A DNA stretch of 64,000 nucleotides from Liolophura sinensis. Its lineage: Eukaryota > Mollusca > Polyplacophora > Chitonida > Chitonidae. This document shows positions 1,410 through 61,700 of the stretch, in pieces. Made by a program: the position numbers and the translations under genes. The number at the start of each line of letters is the position of its first letter. Position 1 is the first letter of the stretch. The notes under the pieces are model-generated. The model was not told the origin of the DNA. It saw only the letters and a list, made by a program, of their open reading frames with translations, and did no database searches. Location of the stretch: positions 37,414,458 to 37,478,457 of the forward strand of contig NC_088300.1 in the NCBI RefSeq assembly GCF_032854445.1, in the 5' to 3' direction.

Positions 1410-2035
1410 CGCAGTACGGATTGTCTTCATTGATGTCTTACCACTTCTCAAGTTATCTTACCACCACCTATCGCAACCCGTCCTCTCATTGATGTCATAC
1501 CACATTTCACGTTTGTCTTACAACCACCTATCGCAATCCGTCCTTTCTTTGATGTCTTGCCACTTTCCCACGTTTGCCTTACCACGACTTATCGCGATCC
1601 GTCCTCTCATCGATGTTATACCACTTTCCACGTTTTGTCTTACCACGTCCTATCGCGATCCGTCCTCTCATTGATGTCATACCACTTTCCACGTTTGTCT
1701 TACCACCACCTAGCTATTATGATCCGTCCTCTCACTGATTTTATACCACTTTCCACGTTTGTCTGACCACGTCTTATCGCGATCCGTCCTCTCATTGATG
1801 TTATACCACTTTCCACGTTTGTCTTACCACCACATAGCTATCATGATCCGTGCTCTCATTGATGCCTTACCACTTCCAAGTTTGTCTTCCCACAATTCAT
1901 CACGATCCCTCCTCTCGTTGGATCTCTTACACTTTCCAAATTTATCTTGCTACGACCTATATAGTGAGCCGTCCTCTCATTGATGTCTTATCACTTTCTA
2001 AGTTTGTCTTACCACGACCTATGGCGATCCATATT
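1410..2035. repeat. Minisatellite, about 60-bp unit, about 10 copies
   Basis: A unit containing GATCCGTCCTCTCATTGATG, then TACCACTTTCCACGTTTGTC, recurs every 60-66 bp. Copies in the middle are the most alike, while the right edge (after 1900) is more diverged. Some units carry a 6-bp insertion (CTAGCTATTATGATCC in place of CTATCGCGATCC). Overlapping open frames of 69-94 residues come from the repeat. Confidence 0.9.
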
Positions 2036-5389: not shown

Positions 5390-6065
5390 GACGACCCTTA
5401 GTCATCGTGCTCGTAAGTCCAAGAACCTGAGTCATTGTGCTGGTGAAGTCAAGAGCCTGAATCATCGTTCTCGTGATTCTAAGATTCTGAGACATTATGC
5501 TGGTGAATCCAAGAGCATGAGTCAGTGTGAGCCCGAGTCCTCGTTTTCAGAATCCAAGAACATGAGTCGTTGAGCTTTAGTCATTATGCTCTTGAATCCA
5601 AGAGCGTTAATTATTGCGCTAGTGGATCCAAGAGCATGTGTCATTGTGCTCGTGAATCCAAGAGCCTGAGTCATTGCGCTAGTGAATCCAAGAGCCTGGG
5701 TTATTGAGCTAGTGAATCCAAGAGCTTGAGTCATTGAGCTAGTGAATCCAAGAGCCTGAGTCATTGCGCTAGTGAATCCAAGAGCCTGGGTTATTGAGCT
5801 AGTGAATCCAAGAGCCTGAGTCATTGCGCTAGTGAATCCAAGAGCCTGGGTTATTGAGCTAGTGAATCCAAGAGCTTGAGTCATTGTGCAAGTGAATCCA
5901 AGAGCATGTGTCATTGTGCTCGTGAATCCAAGAGCCTGAGTCATTGCGCTAGTGAATCCAAGAGCCTGGGTTATTGAGCTAGTGAATCCAAGAGCTTGAG
6001 TCATTGTGCCAGTGAATCCAAGAGCCTGAGTTATTGCGCTAGTGAATCAAATAGCCTGAGTCATT
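5390..6065. repeat. Minisatellite, 30-bp unit, about 22 copies
   Basis: The unit is GTGAATCCAAGAGCCTGAGT plus a TCATTGCGCTA-like remainder. Several copies alternate in a two-unit higher-order pattern (TCATTGCGCT then TTATTGAGCT) between about 5660 and 5990. The left edge is degenerate. Because 30 is a multiple of 3, the minus strand stays open for 160 residues as a MTQALGFTS-type repeat. I do not regard this as coding. Confidence 0.92.
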
Positions 6066-10754: not shown

Positions 10755-11640
10755 GTGTATACTACACGTTGTAATCAGTTTACGTGCACTACACTTAGCG
10801 GTCAGTTTGAGTACACTACACTTAGCGGTCAGTTTGAGTACACTACACTTAGCGGTCAGTTTGAGTACTCTACACTTAGCGGTCAGTTTGAGTACTCTAC
10901 ACCTAGCGGTCAGTTTGAGTACTCTACACTTAGCGGTCAGTTTGAGTACTCTACACCTAGCGGTCAGTTTGAGTATACTACACTTAGCGGTCAGTTTGGG
11001 TACAGTACACTTAGCGGTCAGTTTGAGTACACTACACTTAGCGGTCAGTTTGAGTACTCTACACTTGGCGGTCAGTTTGGGTACACTACACTTAGCGGTC
11101 AGTTTGAGTACACTACACTTAGCGGTCAGTTTGAGTACACTACACTTAGCGGTCAGTTTGAGAAAGCTACACTTATTGGTCAGTTTGAGTACTCTACACT
11201 TAGCGGTCAGTTTGAGTACACTACACTTAGCGGTCAGTTTGGGTACACTACACTTAGCGGTCAGTTTGAGTACACTACACTTAGCGGTCATGTTGAGAAC
11301 GTTACACTTATTGGTCAGTTTGAGTACACTACACTTAGCGGTCAGTTTGAGTACACTACACTTAGCGGTCAGTTTGAGTACACTACACTTATTGGTCAGT
11401 TTGAGTACACTACACTTATTGGTCAGTTTGAATACACTGCACCTAGCGGTCAGTTTAAGTACACGACATTTATTGGTCTGTTTGAGTACACTACACTTAC
11501 CGGTCAGTTTGAGTACACTACACTTAGCGGTCAGTTTGAGAAAGCTACACTTATTGGTCAGTTTGAGTACACTACACTTAGCGGTCAGTTTGGGTACACT
11601 ACACATTGCACTTAGTGGTCGACTGGAGTATTCTGCACAT
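10755..11640. repeat. Minisatellite, 27-bp unit, about 32 copies
   Basis: The unit is CACTTAGCGGTCAGTTTGAG plus TACACTA, repeated with point variants (TACTCTA, CCTAGCGG, TTATTGGTCAG). A two-part block with GAGAAAGCTACACTTATTGG occurs twice, near 11160 and 11538, hinting at block duplication. Since 27 is a multiple of 3 and the unit has few stops, frames of 286-346 residues stay open on both strands. They start and end with the array, so I treat them as artefacts. Confidence 0.95.
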
Positions 11641-18184: not shown

Positions 18185-18560
18185 GAAGTGTATGGAAGGG
18201 GGAAGGACTTGCTCACGCAGTGATCATGTGCAGTATTGTATATATGGAAGGAGGGGGGCACTTGCTCACACAGTGATCATGTGCAGTATTGTATATATGG
18301 AGTGCGGGCACTTGCTCACGCAGTGATTATGTGCAGTATTGTATATATGGAGGGGGGCACTTGCTCACGCAGTGATCATGTGCAGTATTGTATATATAGA
18401 GTGGGGGGCACTTGCTCACGCGATGATCATGTGCAGTATTGCATATCTGGTGACAAAGGAGATATGTTCACGCATTGATCATGTGCAGTATCCATCAGTA
18501 TATCGAGTTGGGTGGGGGGGGGGGGGGTACACGCAATGATTGTGTGCAATATTGTGTATC
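18185..18560. repeat. Minisatellite, about 50-bp unit, 7 copies
   Basis: GATCATGTGCAGTATTGTAT recurs at intervals of 48-59 bp, preceded by CACTTGCTCACGCAGT and separated by G-rich stretches of variable length. The right end includes an uninterrupted run of 14 G at 18514-18527. Confidence 0.9.
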
Positions 18561-32755: not shown

Positions 32756-35700
32756 TCAGTGGCTATGGCCTAAGGACAGAATCACGGGTATAACAGCACC
32801 AACCACCATAGCCGCTAGCTCAGTCTTTGTGAAGCCTTTCTGGACTTCGCCTGAAGGCGACTTTCCCATATTGGCTATCTCTGGAAGCACATGTACAGTG
32901 GCCACGTACAAGAATGTCCCGGCACTAAATAACATGGCTATTCCAGTGGCATTAAGGTCAGATAAAGACTCTTTGTTTTGCTGAAAAAGAAAGCAGTAAT
33001 AAGACATAAGACTGTACAGTATACATGTATATAGGTTGCATGTAATAGCTTTATCACAAATATCACCTACATAGTGATATCTAGAAATGCTTAATTATTC
33101 ATGTGATTTGTGTTTATTGTGCCATACTTAAAGGAGAAGAAAATTTAAATATCAATCAAACACCATTGAAAAGTGTATGCATTTCCTCGCAAGTGCATGC
33201 CATAAAAACATTCTAATATGTACCTCAAGTTGATAAATTATAAATAAAGTCAGTGCCAAAATCTGCTGTGGGCGACTCCATTTTGCCTAAGAACTAGTCC
33301 TGAAGTCTTCTGTGTTAGGAGAATTGCCGTTGGAAACGGCCGAAGTGCAGTTTGTACATTTCGAGTAGAACTCTTTTTCCCAGAAGGTAAAGAACAGTAC
33401 AGTTCGTTTTCCGCTTGACAATTGGGAAACCAGAATGTTTGATGTAGGTTCCGGCAGCATTAAGGACTCTCACTGGCATTATGTGCGTGGCGGGAAAAAT
33501 CGCAAAATCTGTAGTTGGCACAACCAGACAGAAAAAAAAATGTGCTCTTTTCAGCCTCTAGTGTCATTTTTTAAAGTTTTCTTCTCCTTTAAGAATATTT
33601 CATTTATACAATAAGAGACAGGCTTATGGGTAGAGTAGCGCAAGAATTTAAGTGTATCAGGAATGAACAGAACATTGCCACATCTGGTTACCTTTAAATA
33701 AATGTTAAATTTGGGGGGGGGGGGGGGGTTCTAGCTACAACAAGTGACTGACACTAATCACTAATCAACCATTCCCTTCAACAGCATTCTGAAAAGTGTA
33801 GGCATAAAGATGGGGTGGAGGTTGAGGGTAGTTGAAAGTGTTCAGATAATTAGAGCGTCCACAGAATAAGAACAATTATTGTATATTATTTGTTGTCTTT
33901 TCTTTTGACAATTGTAATCATTAACCATTTCAGACAACCAATCCTTTAACATGTGGCTTCTGTGCAGAATAACACTGCTTTTTTTTTTTTGGGAAGTCGC
34001 AGCTATTAGAAATTCACACTTATTTGTAAATAACTGCCACAGTTAGAATATTGCATAAAGGTGATGTGATTTGTGACAAGTAGTAAGTAATTTAAACCAA
34101 ATGTCTGCAATGTTTAAGGTGGGCTTCATGGACCCTATAGACACTATTACGTCCAATGACGACAAGCACATTATTTCCTAGCCCAAATCAATTTATTTGT
34201 TTATTTGATTGTTGTTTTACGCCGTACTGAAGAATATTTCTTTTATACGATGGCCGCCAGCATTATGGTGGGAGGAAACTGGGGGAAACCCACGACCGTC
34301 CGCAGGCTGCTGGAAGACCTTCCCGCTTACGACCGGAGAGGAAGCCAGCATGAGCTGAACTTGAACTCACAACGACCGCATTGGTGAGAGGCCTCTGCGC
34401 TAACCAACTGAGCCACAGAGGCCCCCAGCCCAAATCAAGCATTTTATGTCAAAATAACGTTTTTATATTAACGGTGAAATTTAAATATATACATAAGACC
34501 TAATTATAAGCAAGTCAATAAAGTCCACATAACAATTCAAACCTCATGTTATTTCCATGACAAATGCTAGAATAAATTCTAAATAAAAAATTAAAATATT
34601 TCTTTTTTCATGGTCTATCAGATGATAAAAAAATTATGCTGAAGAAACATTGCCCAAATAGTGTACAGAATATGTATGCTCTTTCACTCACCGTACTTAA
34701 AGTGAAATATGTGACTAAGGATAGAAATGGAGCTGCCAAGGCAAACACTGCTAAATGTTTCCGGATACGATTCCTGTCAAATCCTTCATGGAGAAGGAAA
34801 GAAACCAGGCCAAATGCTGCTGGAGCCTGAAAATAGCCAGCGACGTCAAAGAAATTTTACAAAAACATCACCACATAGATATAGCAACACTTTCTAAATA
34901 GGCTAACAGTTAGAAAATGGTAAACATGTCAATATGCTTAAAGGGATACACAATCGTTTCTGATTGGCTGACGTGGGAGACGGGTATGTCAGGGCTATGC
35001 CCAGCCTAATCTTAATTTCAGGTATGGCCGATTTATTCAAACATGCACAAAGCAGCATGGTTTAACCCAGGAAATTCTGTCTCCACTTTCAGCCAACAAT
35101 TCTGTGTCCCTTTAAGCAGAGGTTGTCAACAGATAAAACAGTAAATATTAACAGTAGAGTGAGATGACCATCTGAGCAAAAAAGAGCATAATGACCAAAA
35201 AGACAATATCAGTGAGGTGAAAATCAGCTACCCACCTTGTGAAGCATAAGATCCATGAAGACAATACCAGTGAGGTGAAAATCAGCTACCCACCTTGTGA
35301 AACATAATGACCAAGGAGACAATGACAGCGAGGTGAAAATCAGCTACCAGCCTTGTGACGAATAATAGCCAGGGAGACAATACCACTGAGGTGAAAATCA
35401 GCTACCCACCTTGTGAAGCATAAGATCCATGAAGACAATACCAGTGAGGTGAAAATCGGCTACCCACCTTGCCAAGCATAATAGTCAGGAAGATAATACC
35501 AGTGAGGTGAAAATCAGCTACCCACCGAGGCGAAAATCAGCTACCCACCTTGTGAAGGATAATAGCCAGGAAGACAATACCAGTGAGGTGAAAATCAGTT
35601 ACCCACCTTGCGAAGCATAATAGCCAGGAAGACAATACCAGTGAGGTGAAAATCAGTTTGCCAGCTTGTAAAGCAAAACGAGCAGGAAGGCAATGCCAGT

Positions 35701-38700
35701 GGGGTGAAAATCAGTTATCCACCTTGTGAAGCATGATGGCCAGCAGGGCAATACCAGTGAGGTGAAAATCAGCTACCCACCTTGTGAAGGATAATAGCCA
35801 GGAAGACAATACCAGTGAGGTGAAAATCAGTTACCCACCTTGCGAAGCATAATAGTCAGGAAGACAATACCAGTGAGGTGAAAATCAGTTAGCCAGCTTG
35901 TAAAGCATAATGAGCAGGGAGGCAATGCCAGTGAGGTGAAAATCAGTTACCCACCTTGTGAAGCATGATGGCCAGCAAGACAATACCAGTGAGGTGAAAA
36001 TCAGCTACCCACCTTGTGAAGGATAATAGCCAGGAAAACAATACCAGTGAGGTGAAAATCAGTTACCCACCTTGTGAAGCATAATGGCCAGAAAGACAAT
36101 ACCAGTGAGGTGAAAATCAGTTACCTACCTTGTGAAGCATAATAGTCAGGAAGACAATACCAGTGAGGTGAAAATCAGTTACCCACCTTGTGAAGCATAA
36201 TGGCCAGAAAGACAATACCAGTGAGGTGAAAATCAGTTACCTACCTTGTGAAGCATAATGGCCAGAAAGACAATACCAGTGAGGTGAAAATCAGTTACCC
36301 ACCTTGTGAAGCATAATGGCCAGAAAGACAATACCAGTGAGGTGAAAATCAGTTACCCACCTTGTGAAGCATAATGAGCAGGGAGGCAATGCCAGTGAGG
36401 TGAAAATCAGTTACCCACCTTGTGAAGCATAATGGCCAGAAAGACAATACCAGTGAGGTGAAAATCAGTTACCCACCTTGTGAAGCATAATGGCCAGAAA
36501 GACAATACCAGTGACATGAGCCTCCGCTGTGGATACAGCAGCTCCCAGGGCCACGCCATCAGCTGTACAGACAACAAACACACCTTATATAATCTCAGCT
36601 TAGCTTCTTTTCAAGTTAGACACTCAATTTTCATGCTGAAGTGAAACGATTTTGGAATTAGCTACTCTACTGCAACAGGTCACATTTTCATACCCTTTTG
36701 GACACCCAAATTAAACCGAAAACAATGAAATTAAGATTAGATCAAAATTTTAGAAATATGTTTATACATATAAAAAATTATTTAATTTAATGCTAAAAAT
36801 CTGTGATTTAATCCTATATAATACGTAACCAATGTCTTTTGTTCGTATTTGCATAATTTGGCTTGAAGTTACATATGTTTTAACAATTACTTGTTCTTTT
36901 GCCCAAATTATGACTCAAAAGGCGCCCAAACTAAGAAGCCATATCTGACTAGCTGTCACTGTACTAGCACATGACACGTACTTTAAGTGCTAAATGTCCA
37001 CTGAGGCACGAGATGAAGCATTTGATATTTCCTCTTTGTAGCGGCAGAAATTTAGCAAAGCATTTCAGATTACATTTTACAGCAAAAAAACATAACTGAG
37101 AAGAACAAATCTTCACACAAGGACAATTCATGAGCATAAACAAGGTTTCACGATCAGAACTTTGTACCTTGTTAAGCAAATCCATATACCTACCTGCTGC
37201 ATGAACAACTAGTCCCAGGGTGGCTGTTATTTTATTTCTGTTTTGAACTGCTGGTTGACTTGGGGTCTCTGAATCAACTGTAGGACAGCAAGAAAAAAAA
37301 CCAAAAAAACAAAGTTGTATAGATTACCACCTATTCAAAATTCGTCTGAAAAATATATCACACTAATTTTTCAAAGGAATTCATTAAGAATTAAAGTATA
37401 TAAGTTTGTCATTTTGCCCAAGACACATTTTACTTCATTTCGAGCAAAGAGATATAAAGAAAAGTTTTTTTGTGAAGTTTGATTAATTTCGTATGAGAAA
37501 AACGTAATTTTCATTTCAGGTCCTTTATGTGCTTCTGAAAGTGTATTTTTATGTTCCAGATTTTAAGTGAAATACGGTAAGCTTAATAATAGTCAATGTT
37601 GAGGAAAACTTGTGGCCACTCACCTGTGGGTGCGTGGGAGTGGGACCCCCCACCAATCTGATCCACAAGTAACATGAAGATGAAGCCTACAACTAGAGCA
37701 ATGCCGATAGTTGTATGTGTGTCTATCCTACTGTGGGTGTGGGGATGATGATGAGCACTAGTGTCTTGTCCAGCCTCTCCCTGGGTCAGTTTTTCTGCTG
37801 TCATATGCTTGGACTCATCCTCATGGTGGTGTTCACCTTTTAAAAGAAACAGACTAATATATATGGCTGTACAATTTTCCACATGTTGGATAAAAAAACA
37901 TGTGCTTGTGTTATGATGGTGTAAGAACTGCCTTTGCCTAAATACATGTCATATCAATGTTAATCTTTTAATCAGTATTTTACTCCCTTCTTTCTTATAT
38001 TGTTACCTGTTTTTCGCCTAGTTCAAACATGATCAGTCCATACTGGGATTAGCTATGGCAACCCTCTGTCAATCAATCCATGCATGGACCAACATATAAA
38101 CCCTTCCAGACTTCATTCTAGAGAGTAAAATGTACAGTTAATAAACGGAAGTAGAACTTTAAAGCTAAGTGTCCAGAGTCTTTACTTGATGTCATCAACA
38201 CTTTGAAGACCAAAATCTTTGTTGATAAATGGCTGTCTAACAAGGGTCATACCAGAAATACAAGTACATATAATACAGTGAAGTTTGCCACTGCATTATT
38301 TAGTACACATAGTTTGTGTGATCTGGTAGGTCAATGTGGGCGATGGTGCTAACAATACACAAGGTGCTACTGAGGAATTATGGGAAATAATTTGTAGTCT
38401 GCATGGCATGGTCAGTGAGTACGGTCAGATTCATTAGAATGCATTGTGAAGCATTCTTCTAGAAACACAAATGTCCGATCAGGTATTGCTGAGACTGTAT
38501 GAACCAATCAATGTGGAGTGGGAGTACCAAGATGGGGGATCGTATAAAGAGAGCGTGGCACACCTCTCTCTTTTTATATACTTCTGGAAATACTAAAACA
38601 TGAAAGCAAATACATGTAAAATACACAGTGAATAAGCTACAACATTATGTTGTATCAACATTTTACACGCAAAATTTGGTCAATATTTTGATGGTTTATG

Positions 38701-41186
38701 TTTTTATCATGTTAACACCTCCACGTTGTGATTTAAACCCTTGACCTGAGATCACAGAGAGTATTAAGGTAAAATCTCTGTTTGATGTGAACAGTTTTCT
38801 GTGTGGTGATATTAATAGCCTACATTTTATGTATTGAGCCACTATTAAAGTCTGAATGCAGTGAAAAGTACAGCAATGTTACTGGCGACCAGTATTATGG
38901 TGGGAGGAATCCAGGCAGTGGCCCGGAGAAAAATGTCAACATTCTGGTGTTCATGTCATTCAATAAAAGTATGCATGTGTTATGCCCAATATCAAACTAA
39001 GTGTTGCACTAATGTTTGTGTACCATTGTACTGATCCAATTGTAAGAGAGTTGGTATGCAAGCAATTCCAAACATGGATGATGCCAAAGTTACATCTGGA
39101 CTGCATGTTTGCTGAACACAGATGGAGACCTACATAATGCACATGTATTTGTTAGGGCTATCATTAATAATATATCCATTGGGGGAATCTTGATTGATCC
39201 TCCAAAAAAAAGGCCTGGGATTCAATTTCTTTTTTATTATTACTTTTATCTCAGTGTTAATTTCATTAAAATCCCCATAGTTTCCCGAATCAGCCAGAAA
39301 AATACTTTCCTACCAACCAACATTTTTACCAACATTTTTTTATGCCATGGTCAGGTTACCGACGACAAAGAATGTGTACTTAAAATCTGTTATTTTTTGC
39401 TGGCTGACTCACCTTGATGGGAAGAATACATATTATGTACAGCCTCAGGTATTATGACAGCCAGAGATGTTCCCACGAGCAGTCCTGCACCCAAAACCGT
39501 CACCAACTTCAACTTTTCCTACAGCAAACAAGCCCCACAAATAATTCTTGGTTTCAGTGCAATTACATCTGTCTCACTTCCTATTTGATGATGCTAGCTT
39601 TGATTTTGGCATCATCTCTCAGAACTGTAATAATAACATTTATTATACAGCTACAAATTTGTGGCTAGATGACATAAGAATGTACTAATTCTTCAAGCAT
39701 CAAATAACATAGATGTAACCAGTTTGTAAGAGTTGCCAACAGAAAATCAGCAAATATCTCTTTAATTACATCAAAAATAGAAAAAATAAGAGGTGCAGCT
39801 TGATTGTTGTGAATTTTCTGAAAATTTACAAAGCAAGTCTTTGCAATTCAAATAACAACACGAAATACGTGAGTGACTGCTTGGGGTTTAACAGTGTACT
39901 TAACAATTTTTCAGTTGTATGACGATGAAGGAATCCTTAGAGTGCATGTAACGTGCCTCCTTGTTGCAGGACAGATTTCCACCACTCTTTTATCTAATGC
40001 TACATCATGGAAGCGCCTTACCGAAGGCAAGTAAGCCGCCCCGCCTGAGCCATTACACTGATACAGGTCAACCAGTTGTTGCACTATCCCCTTCATGCTG
40101 AACACCAAGCGAGGAAGTTACAACTCCCTCCTTAAAGGTCTTAGGTGTGACTCGACCCAGGAATGACCCTGGATCTACCCACTCCCGAAGTGGACACCTA
40201 CTGTGCTATCAGGGCAGGTACAAGAAGTGAGAGTCACAAACACAATCCCACAGCACTAGTGGATTTAACAGCTTTGTACTTGTATGTGTGTGTGCCGAAC
40301 TCAGTTGTTTGCTTTCCAAACCATAAATCTGATTGGCTCAGCATTATGGTGGGAGGAAACTTGGCAGAGCCCGGGGGAAACCCACGATCATCACCACATT
40401 GAAACTTACTACTTCCTGTCAACTGACATGGAAACCAGAAATCTGATCAAAATAGTTACAGTTTGAATAGGTACCAACTTTAACTCAGTATGAGCCTGCA
40501 TATGAACTATGAAATCCTTATCTGACACGGTTTTACTTTTACTGCGATCACGTCATTGCTGTTTTCAATGTTTTGCCGTGGAAACCAGAAGTTTGATAGA
40601 ATTAGTCCCCAGTTTGAATGGAAATCTCCATATGAACCTTCATACCAAATATGAAATTCTATCTGAAATGGTTTGACTTCTCTTACAATCATCTCGTTCA
40701 TGCCATCGGCACGGATAGACGGACAAATGTGATGACTTACTCCTTTGACTTCGGCCTAATATGCTCATGGGGTTAATGTTTTGTGTGACACTGCATCTTT
40801 AATGCTTACTGCTCTTAGAATTCTTCCTATAAGTATGATGTATTTTGTACCGAATTTGTAATGGCTTAGGTGGGGCAGCTTATTTGCCTAAGTCGTCTCA
40901 ATGAAGCAGCACTTGGTAACACAGCGGTGGAAATCCGTCCTGCAACAAGGAGGCACATTACATGTACATGCACTCTCGTGACTCCCTCATCGTCACATGA
41001 GTGAAATATTGTTAAGTATGACGTTAAACCTTAAGCACTTTCTCACTCATTCACAATATGTACATTAACCTGTCATAATTCTCTAATTACCTCGGAAAAG
41101 GTAAACGCTAGTGGGATAAGACCAGCCACATAACATCCTACTAGCATAGCCAGAGAGAGAATGATTACAGTCCACAATTCATCCAT
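32756..41186 (-). CDS. SLC39A9: Zinc transporter ZIP9, complete, seven coding exons
   Basis: Coding exons: 41091-41186, 39413-39518, 37624-37836, 37194-37277, 36477-36562, 34692-34826 and 32756-32980. All have GT-AG ends, and their phases join to 314 residues (human about 307). Zinc importer of the ZIP family; in vertebrates the homologue sits in Golgi and plasma membrane and is also reported as a membrane androgen receptor. Helix 1 is [15 protein letters not shown] and helix 2 [19 protein letters not shown] His-rich loop (residues 69-110, with HHH twice) precedes [20 protein letters not shown]. The metal site is HAAADG (H164, D168) and HKAPAAFG (H194). The last exon gives [20 protein letters not shown] and ends GHSH. 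The gene is head-to-head with ERH. Intron 5 begins with a minisatellite made of copies of its own exon/intron junction, so donor choice for exon 5 is uncertain: the copy next to the exon is assumed. Confidence 0.96.
33713..33728. repeat. Run of 16 G
   Basis: Uninterrupted G homopolymer in SLC39A9 intron 6, seen as C on the transcript strand. Confidence 0.9.
34192..34426 (-). mobile_element. Family 1 SINE in SLC39A9 intron 6
   Basis: Nearly complete with a small deletion in the GGGCTCTGCCCGG area. Perfect target duplication AGCCCAAATCAA at 34180-34191 and 34427-34438. Same strand as the host gene, 265 nt below exon 6. Confidence 0.95.
35208..36510 (-). repeat. 58-bp minisatellite built from the SLC39A9 exon 5 / intron 5 junction
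   Basis: About 23 tandem copies. Read on the gene strand, each 58-bp unit holds the last 32 nt of exon 5 (GTATTGTCTTTCTGGCCATT then ATGCTTCACAAG), then 26 nt of intron starting GTGGGTAACTGATTTTCACC. Most units keep an intact CAAG/GTGGGT donor. The copy touching the exon (36477) is the one used in the gene model. Copies become less alike away from the exon, and one unit near 35521 is a short partial. The array lies within intron 5 and overlaps the 3' end of exon 5. Confidence 0.95.
37837..39412. other. SLC39A9 intron 2
   Basis: No gene inside. It contains one scrap of family 1 SINE (38876-38935) and an AT-rich remainder. Confidence 0.6.
38876..38935 (-). mobile_element. Family 1 SINE body fragment
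   Basis: GGCGACCAGTATTATGGTGG then GGCAGTGGCCCGGAGAAAA. Both ends are missing. Confidence 0.7.
39868..40205 (-). mobile_element. Family 2 SINE in SLC39A9 intron 1
   Basis: Tail GAGTGACTGCTTGGGGTTTA at the left, then GGTCAACCAGTTGTTGCAC, the reversed B box TGACTCGACCCAGG, and the head near 40200. Same strand as the gene. Confidence 0.88.
40341..40395 (-). mobile_element. Family 1 SINE body fragment
   Basis: CAGCATTATGGTGGGAGG through GGCAGAGCCCGGGGGAAACC. No head or tail. Confidence 0.8.
40425..40735. repeat. Two diverged tandem copies ending in a GGACGG-like tract
   Basis: GGAAACCAGAAATCTGAT at 40430 is matched by GGAAACCAGAAGTTTGAT at about 40580. Both are followed by CAGTTTGAAT, CATATGAAC and a GACACGGTTT/GAAATGGTTT block. 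The second copy runs into GGCACGGATAGACGGACAAA. Confidence 0.65.
40868..41052 (+). mobile_element. Family 2 SINE, 3' half
   Basis: GGTGGGGCAGCTTATTTGCC, then AATGAAGCAGCACTTGG, then the tail ATTGTTAAGTATGACGTTAA. It ends 35-40 nt from the exon 1 donor of SLC39A9 (GT at 41089-41090). Confidence 0.85.
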
Positions 41187-46624: not shown

Positions 46625-46995
46625 GTGATTTAGTAATGAAGCAAAAACGATAGATCTACGACATTGTCTATAGTGTACTATAGTACACTGGAGAACAAAC
46701 AGTGTTAAAAAGAAAAAGATGTAGTGTCAATAGTATTTAGCTGCTAGCAGTGTCCCTCTTACATTCACGTTCTTGGGTAATATTTCTGAGAAAATTCACT
46801 TTGCACAATCCTTACACTGATTAATCCATGGTGTCTAGTATTATTTTGCGTGAACAAGAGCACCTTACATGTAGAAAAACCTGACCGAGAAGGGAGGGAT
46901 AAATAAACACTATCAGATGTCCATAATGGTGTGCAAAACAAAGCCCCAGCTGGCCCTCCACTTGATTGTTGTGCACGCAGGTCAGGAATGTGTTA
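46625..46995. other. No feature seen
   Basis: Unassigned sequence after the ERH poly(A) signals. Confidence 0.4.
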
Positions 46996-46997
46996 CT

Positions 46998-47158
46998 TGA
47001 CCATTACTTGCCCAAGGAATGGTTGACTTCACCATTACTTGCCAAAGGAATGGTTTACTTCACCATTACTTGCCCAAGGAATGGGTTACTTCACCATTAC
47101 TTGCCCAAGGAATGGTTGACTTCGCCATTACTTGCCCAAGGAATGGTTTACTTCACCA
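46998..47158. repeat. Minisatellite, 31-bp unit, 5 copies
   Basis: ACCATTACTTGCCCAAGGAA then TGGTTGACTTC repeats with few changes at 47000, 47031, 47062 and on. Confidence 0.92.
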
Positions 47159-58720: not shown

Positions 58721-61700
58721 TCAGACTGATGTTTGTCGATAGTTTTTTGTTTCAATGACTTTCTTCCCACACATGGCACAGATTCCTAAAACAGAAATTA
58801 CACAGTGACACTATGGTTAGAAATAAACTTGTACAAAAAAAGTGCAGTAGTACAAATGAAAAACCTCAGTATGAAGTACTTAAACCTTCACCTTAACATG
58901 GATTCTAATACACAAAAGAGATGTGAAGGTCATCAGTTTGGTAATTTACAGTAATTAATATGTATACAAAGTACCAAAAATGAAACATCCCTCTCATTTC
59001 TATGCTTTACATGTACGCAAAACCGGTTTTCAATACATGTAGTATTTTTTAAAAAGCACCGTTAATATTTACCATAACATTCCAATACAGAAGAGGCTAA
59101 GTTGTGAATTTAGAACAGCTGCAGAACCCTCACTTTTTTGTGCTAAGACACTGTAAACAATTTCCCACCCACCCTCTACAACAACACCATATACTATTGA
59201 ACACATTCTGTCCAACAGCCATTAGCCATAATTTTTTTATGAGCATTAATGATGTAAACTCTCAAAGTTTACGAACACTGAACATATATTGTAATTATGA
59301 CACATACCTTTTTTGTATGCACAACCTGGAAAAAAAAAAGTTATTGTGAGAGAGTGCTTGCAATGTGCATGTAATGTGCCTCCTTGTTGCAGGATGGATT
59401 TCCACTGCTCTTTTATCTAGTGCTGCTTCACTGAGACGACTTACCGAAGACAAGTAAGCCGCCCAACCCAAGCCATTATACTGATACGGGTCAACCAGTC
59501 ATTGCACTATTCCCTTAATGCTGAAAGCCAAGCAAGGAAATTACAACTTCCTATATTAAGGTCTCAGGTGAGACCCGACCCAAGATTGACCCTGGATCTA
59601 CCTCCCCTGAAGCCGGTGCTCTACTGAGCTATCGCTGCCAGTCATAGTGTTATTATAAAAAATGTAAAGTATTACAATGTGAAATGTGTACTCAGTATAG
59701 GTCATTGAAACATGGTTCAACAACTTTCAATTTCTCTGGTCTCCCACTTCATAAACTAACCATAAGTTTGATTTCCTCTGTGAAAACCATTTTCTCAAGA
59801 AAACTCAAGTTGATCTCAAGATTTTACAGTTTATAGAGAGAGGGAGTGTTTGAAAGTTTTGCATTAAAAGGGAAAGTCTTAATTTGACGAGACATATTAG
59901 TTAACCTACCTTGACAGTAATGAGATCCAACCTGGTGTACTGACGACTTACATATTCTACATTTCGCAAAAGTGGAGTACGGCGCAAATCTGAAACCAAA
60001 ACAAATAGAAAACAACCAATAAGGGAAGGCCACATAAAATTACACCAACATCACAATTAAAGTTTAAAAGAAGCTACTCAGTGAATTTATTAGGATTCAT
60101 AATTTAAAAGCGTGCAGAGACACATGAACGTCAGGTCCCTGTTTCACGAAGTGCACTGTAAAAGCTAAGTGTGCCCTTCCAATAGGACAGCGTACTTGTT
60201 GTTTAAGATATGAAGTACACTGTAAAAGCTAAGTGTGCCCTTCCAATAGGACAGCGTATCTGTTGTTTAAGATATGAAATGCACTGTAATAGCTAAGTGT
60301 GTCCTTCCAATAGGACAGCGTACTTGTTGTTTAAGATATGAAATGCACTGTAATAGCTAAGAATGCCCTTCCAATAGGACAGCGTACTTGTTGTTTAAGA
60401 TATGAAATGCACTGTAATAGCTAAGTGTGCCCTTCCAATAGGACAGCGTACCTGTTGTTTAAGATATGAGGTGCACTGTTATAGCTAAGTATGCCCTTCC
60501 AATAGGACAGCGTACTTGTTGTTTAAGATATGAAGTGCACTTGGCTAAGGACTACATAATACTAAGTAGGCTACGCTTCAGGACATCAGTCTATTACAAA
60601 ATAATCAATATTTATTTCACCACATCATTTCTCAACAGAATTTTCTTTGTACACAAAATGCGTTAAAAGACACATTTACAATCACAACTAAATTTAAAGA
60701 ACATACCTATTTTTCTTAGCTGTCAAGGCTTTGTTTTCTCCCACTGTTCGTCCCCCTCCTTCTGTAAACAGATCAGGTTTTCACATGTAGTCAGTTTGCA
60801 CTGAATAAAGTTTTCAATGCACCTAACTACCCAAAAACATGCAAAAAAAATATGCATCTTGTTAAAGGTGAGTAGGCCTACTCTGACAACCCCCATGCAG
60901 TTTTTCCACCTATAACAATCACTACACAGACTAAGAGACAACTTTTTCTGAATACCATGCCTCACGAATTTGAAGTCCTAGTCTACCAAGCTACCTTAAC
61001 CTAGGTCGGTAAACCACTACATACAAGTTTATAAGAGTTTACTTTAATATAAACAGTTTACTTTTATGGAGGCTCAGTGTGTTAATTAGCATACACCACA
61101 AAGGTATTATTGAATTGTCTCTTGTGTTTAAAATAGATACTAACAGTTTCAAATTTAGTCCTGCAGGATACCAAAGTAGAGCAGGGAACTTGCAAATTTC
61201 ATTTCCTAATCACATTTCACGCCAAACGCAAAATATAACAATCTTGATGATCATAACATATCTCTCAAATATAGAGCAGCAATATAATTAAGCTTGATGT
61301 AAGTAAACATTACACACACTAAAAGTTGTCCAGCTCAAGTTGATGAACGTGCCTAAAATTGGGCTTGTCAATTTCACACAGCACATGATGTAAGGTCTGG
61401 GAAGTACACTCATTATGTGCAATGTACAGCTTCAGTATAGTGAAATTCACACAATGATGTGAAATATTTAATGCCGCACCTGGTTTCTCATCAGTGAAAT
61501 GACCTGAACAGGTAGACAAGAGATATCATTTAAGATATCATTAAAAATATTTACAAATGTATCGCACACACTGGGCAGGTCATTTTATAAAAAAAAAAAA
61601 TTTGGAACCACTGTAGAACAAGAACAGACCAATGAAATATCAAGACAGCTTGATGAATATTCATAAGGTATCATGATCATGAGCAAATGGATGTCACTAA

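Follow-up and report, generated by a model that had tools for sequence, protein, structure and literature searches.

The locus of SLC39A9, the gene for ZIP9, in the chiton Liolophura sinensis raises a simple question. The donor of exon 5 is repeated over and over along intron 5, and it may be asked which of these donors the spliceosome takes, and whether the array does anything for the gene. We approached this within the window, that is, the whole stretch of 64,000 nucleotides that was analysed. Exons were located by tblastn with a human ZIP9 sequence, which served as a query only. All seven exons of the L. sinensis gene were found, and with GT/AG joins they form a single open frame of 314 codons. 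The original prediction had named SLC39A9 as the host gene, and the seven exons with their intact frame bear this out. Directly after the CTT CAC AAG that ends exon 5, the sequence reads gtgggtaactga.

The minisatellite has a unit of 58 bp and extends from 36514 to 35185 on the minus strand, exon 5's own copy included, occupying the first 1.29 kb of intron 5. It comprises 22 full copies, 21 of which are intronic, plus a partial copy of 23 bp and a decayed terminal copy (Table 1). An array of about 23 units at 35208-36510 had been predicted; it is real, with its limits and copy number now adjusted to the values given here. The proposal that it arose when the donor boundary of exon 5 was duplicated in tandem also stands, as copy 1 is the end of the exon itself. 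Six other minisatellites, with units of 27-64 bp, lie in the window (1427-2030, 5396-6065, 10775-11604, 18191-18491, 46984-47158 and 60148-60541).

Table 1. Features of the SLC39A9 locus (positions in the window) and exon-boundary arrays in other Zip genes (positions in the locus named)
Feature	Position	Strand	Basis
SLC39A9 (ZIP9) coding gene, 7 exons	32756..41186	-	tblastn and spliced frame
SLC39A9 exon 5, 86 nt, end ...CTT CAC AAG, phase 0	36477..36562	-	tblastn; intact spliced frame
Intron 5, 1650 nt, array ~78%	34827..36476	-	exon boundaries with GT/AG ends
SLC39A9 exon 6 (APAAFGLV...)	34692..34826	-	tblastn; spliced frame
Copy 1, authentic exon 5 end and donor AAG/GTGGGTAA	36457..36514	-	unit alignment; U1 duplex -11.5 kcal/mol
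Copies 2-17, 16 full 58-bp intronic copies, 2 without GT	35529..36456	-	unit alignment
Copy 11, CTGGCT at donor position, no GT	35934-35877	-	unit alignment
Copy 15, CTGGCA at donor position, no GT	35702-35645	-	unit alignment
23-bp remnant, exonic part mostly deleted, GTGGGT retained	35506..35528	-	unit alignment
Five more full copies, among the most decayed	35216..35505	-	unit alignment
Copy 21, GCTGGT, GC instead of GT	35389-35332	-	unit alignment
Degenerate last copy without donor; original distal breakpoint lost	35185..35215	-	unit alignment
Strong cryptic acceptor TTTTTTGCTCAG/ just beyond the eroded distal array end	35172..35185	-	crude acceptor matrix
Zip gene L012, acceptor side, 92 bp x 2, identical	L012:1692-1876, contig C13, ~3.387 Mb
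Zip gene L016, donor side, 89 bp x 2.8	L016:1342-1587, contig C6, ~39.726 Mb
Zip gene L030, acceptor side, 119 bp x 6.4	L030:800-1560, contig C6, ~73.2025 Mb

The unit had been described as 32 exonic plus 26 intronic nucleotides, with a microhomology at the first duplication breakpoint. This is a possible cut, but a unit of 38 exonic plus 20 intronic nucleotides is equally valid, and plain tandem duplication of the latter, which begins with TCACTG, yields an identical array. The motif TCACTG is indeed shared by exon 5 and the joins between units, yet the phase of the unit is ambiguous. No microhomology can be deduced from it, because TCACTG can simply belong to the duplicated unit (TCACTG...CACC) and the distal breakpoint has been eroded.

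The first point to note about the donors is that most of them have survived. Among the 21 full copies within the intron, all but three (copies 11, 15 and 21) retain GT, so the predicted figure of about 20 extra donors is roughly right and comes down to 18. The fuller motif AAG/GT is likewise present in 18/21, and copy 14 has a GT in a weak donor. For 17 of the 21 intronic copies, pairing with U1 is at least as strong as for the authentic donor (-11.5 to -11.9 kcal/mol), a strength reached by just 0.66% of GTs on the minus strand, the array's own counted in. Reading through the first donor gives HK/VGN and a stop inside unit 1, just as had been claimed, and any distal donor cuts ZIP9 after 195 codons plus 3 (VGN-stop). 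Since this stop already falls within unit 1, it is irrelevant that the unit, whose length of 58 bp was given correctly, is not a multiple of 3. As the junction of exons 6 and 7 is far downstream of the VGN-stop, an mRNA made with a distal donor would be an expected target of nonsense-mediated decay.

These donors had led to the proposal that the array is a decoy, in which the extra sites compete for U1, distal choice leads to an mRNA that is truncated and liable to decay, and the number of copies acts as a dial that sets ZIP9 output. In its favour are the 17 intronic donors that match or beat the authentic one and the VGN-stop that follows from every distal choice. A further point comes from the human IFI6 (6-16) minisatellite, as described from Turri 1995 in PMC4526556, which offers several donors, with downstream units used, and so shows that minisatellite donors are usable. 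IFI6 resembles ZIP9 in that a minisatellite lying at the end of an exon provides multiple donors, but its downstream units, used as donors, encode protein isoforms, whereas distal donors in ZIP9 would add VGN-stop. Against a decoy, the ZIP9 donors are preserved no better than the other columns of the unit, the exonic parts are neutral, and the array is one of several exon-boundary arrays, which occur at the background rate expected from the genome's high minisatellite density (both points are taken up below). Nothing in the sequence indicates that the array governs splicing, and we regard the decoy as improbable. It is similarly improbable, on the features described here, that the 17-18 intronic donors are used at a rate that depends on copy number and that the share of truncated ZIP9 mRNA varies between individuals.

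The history of the copies can be followed in their differences. Copies 2, 4, 6 and 8 equal the exon copy over the full 58 bp, and divergence from the exon copy increases along the array (Spearman 0.67, p = 0.0009), with the copies next to the exon edge most alike and the distal edge most decayed. Identity is highest between copies four units apart (0.911). These patterns fit local tandem turnover near the exon. Of the 29 variants counted in the exon-derived codons, 6 are synonymous (8.0 expected by chance) and 23 are replacements (20.8 expected); by this measure the exon-derived segments are drifting neutrally. The notion that the units serve as alternative coding exon ends was considered and rejected: the variants look like conservative changes in a TM helix, but the synonymous and replacement counts are those of neutral drift.

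We saw no sign, at the given sample size, of selection keeping the donors, whose columns differ in 5.3% of cells versus 7.7% elsewhere (p = 0.29). The intron-derived and join columns vary ∼8-fold less than the exonic core (1.4% versus 11% of cells; 36514-35216). For differing cells, several window sizes give a permutation p of ∼0.008-0.03, and the effect is weaker on other measures. Pure neutrality does not account for the low variation of the intron-derived part.

The reading that we prefer, and consider likely from the sequence, is that the array is a minisatellite of the mirage type, most likely neutral and spliced at its first donor. A segment across the exon 5 donor underwent tandem duplication, and unequal exchange or slippage would then have multiplied and turned over the unit until the 22 copies, which drift neutrally, were reached. 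The spliceosome would mainly take the exon-proximal donor, and the whole array would be removed with the intron. Use of a distal donor would give rise to rare transcripts whose reading frame is cut short after VGN, and nonsense-mediated decay would probably remove them. Proximal use is supported by the ZIP9 frame, which is intact via the proximal donor and acquires a stop with any distal one. Given 17 intronic donors of equal strength, the choice of the proximal donor is an assumption on our part. The use of downstream donors in IFI6 and the low variation of the intron-derived and join columns also count against this reading.

Mirages are tandem repeats across exon–intron boundaries, named in amphioxus Adh3 (PMC3087553, PMC3902484) and found also in the BflGb6 and BflGb9 globins, TnC (troponin C) and PGBD5 of that animal (PMC3087553, PMC3902484). 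Judged by its layout, the ZIP9 array is a mirage in anatomy. Both are minisatellite-like tandem repeats that span an exon–intron boundary and carry AG/GT in many, though not all, units (GT in 18/21 in ZIP9), and amphioxus mirages lie at donor or acceptor boundaries, as do the chiton Zip arrays described below. The ZIP9 array differs in being in a mollusc, in another gene and in having more units (22) than those of the amphioxus globins. Splicing of amphioxus mirages with repeated splice sites is reported to be undisturbed (PMC3087553; PMC3902484). Length instability is reported for amphioxus as well, and together with correct splicing it rounds off the picture of mirages in that animal. A further trait of mirages is concerted evolution within the cluster that passes over its edges; in ZIP9 the distal edge is the most decayed, and the copies close to the exon edge are the most similar.

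The recurrence of AAG/GT in most units also brings to mind a dual-specific or recursive splice site, with the AG/GT of each unit acting in both directions. Splicing from unit to unit would then shorten the array or repair the products of distal donors, and the final mRNA would be normal. There is a precedent in the human polyubiquitin gene UBC, where tandem AGGT sites are spliced both ways (PMC10809524) and where, as in ZIP9, a tandem array has an AG/GT in each unit. However, UBC has coding units that keep the frame, whereas those of ZIP9 are intronic and neutrally drifting, with AGs that are weak acceptors. Scored with a crude acceptor matrix, the unit AAGs are mediocre, mostly within the top 10-20% of all AGs, as against the top 0.2-4.4% for the six real ZIP9 acceptors. 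We think this mode of splicing very unlikely.

The same crude matrix picks out the cryptic acceptor TTTTTTGCTCAG, which outscores the real acceptor of exon 6. This strong site at 35172 makes it conceivable that the array is an intermediate in intron or exon gain, in which a cryptic acceptor or mutated units may turn array copies into new exons. Tandem duplication crossing a boundary is a documented source of introns (PMC4974935), seen in potato, and the same idea has been proposed for the amphioxus mirages (PMC3087553). As in the case of PMC4974935, the splice signals in ZIP9 were duplicated by tandem duplication over an intron/exon boundary, but in ZIP9 there are many copies and a new intron is not seen in the sequence. 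The exon-derived parts, moreover, are without coding constraint, and nearly all units contain an in-frame stop. There is thus only a slight chance that the array is such an intermediate.

To place the ZIP9 array in its genomic setting, a base rate was taken from one gene family: Zip-family exons of the same genome were searched for boundary arrays. Three further Zip genes have them, one on the donor side and two on the acceptor side (Table 1), so that with ZIP9 included, boundary arrays are present in 4 of ∼10 multi-exon Zip genes. In the gene with 6.4 copies, these are 99% alike mutually, and ∼10 differences per 130 bp separate them from the real exon boundary. The donor-side array has a second, distinct array within 0.3 kb of it, with a 44-bp unit and ∼30 copies (L016:1869-3231), which reaches the end of that locus. 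No boundary array was found in the kinase and sugar-transporter loci, the kinase loci being mostly single long exons. The share of sequence taken up by arrays is 9.2% in the Zip loci and 5.1% in the remaining window. Three of the 46 other Zip exon edges fall inside arrays, where 2.3-4.2 are expected by chance. Special targeting of exon boundaries was accordingly rejected, 3/46 edges being what array density predicts. The position of an array at a boundary needs no special explanation, because the genome is rich in minisatellites (5-9% of gene DNA).

Tandem arrays are sometimes mis-sized, and it could be that the array was falsely expanded in the assembly. The assembly, published under the name Liolophura japonica, rests on PacBio HiFi reads with a mean length of 8.3 kb (PMC11068029); the same authors have since placed it in L. 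sinensis (PMC12441733). Its mitochondrial gene order, read from contig C632, is the ancestral one of molluscs, which chitons have, and along with the assembly statistics this points to a chiton. Amphioxus was rejected as the source; a search for the GFP family gave no match, which is weak evidence since the control genomes gave none either. The assembly does contain a mitochondrial concatemer, contig C99. This contig, of 108,685 bp, repeats the 15.2-kb mitochondrial genome head to tail, with seven COX1 matches at a spacing of ∼15.5 kb, and is probably a product of assembly. At the ZIP9 locus, in contrast, the mean HiFi read is longer than the 1.3-kb array, and the copies bear distinct substitutions arranged in a gradient, which makes an artefact extremely unlikely. 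Collapse of the array is also unlikely, because the reads exceed its length and its sequence matches a single place in the whole assembly.

In the open-access literature we found no earlier report of such an array in a mollusc, although this does not prove that none exists. With the ZIP9 array, exon-boundary minisatellites are known from a chiton as well as from amphioxus and human. Its run of ∼18 competing donors, all nearly equally strong, is unusually long and provides a natural test of spliceosome choice between identical donors. If the genome-wide frequency of boundary arrays matches that of the Zip sample (4/∼10), chitons would be well suited to watching the gain of introns and exons by tandem duplication.
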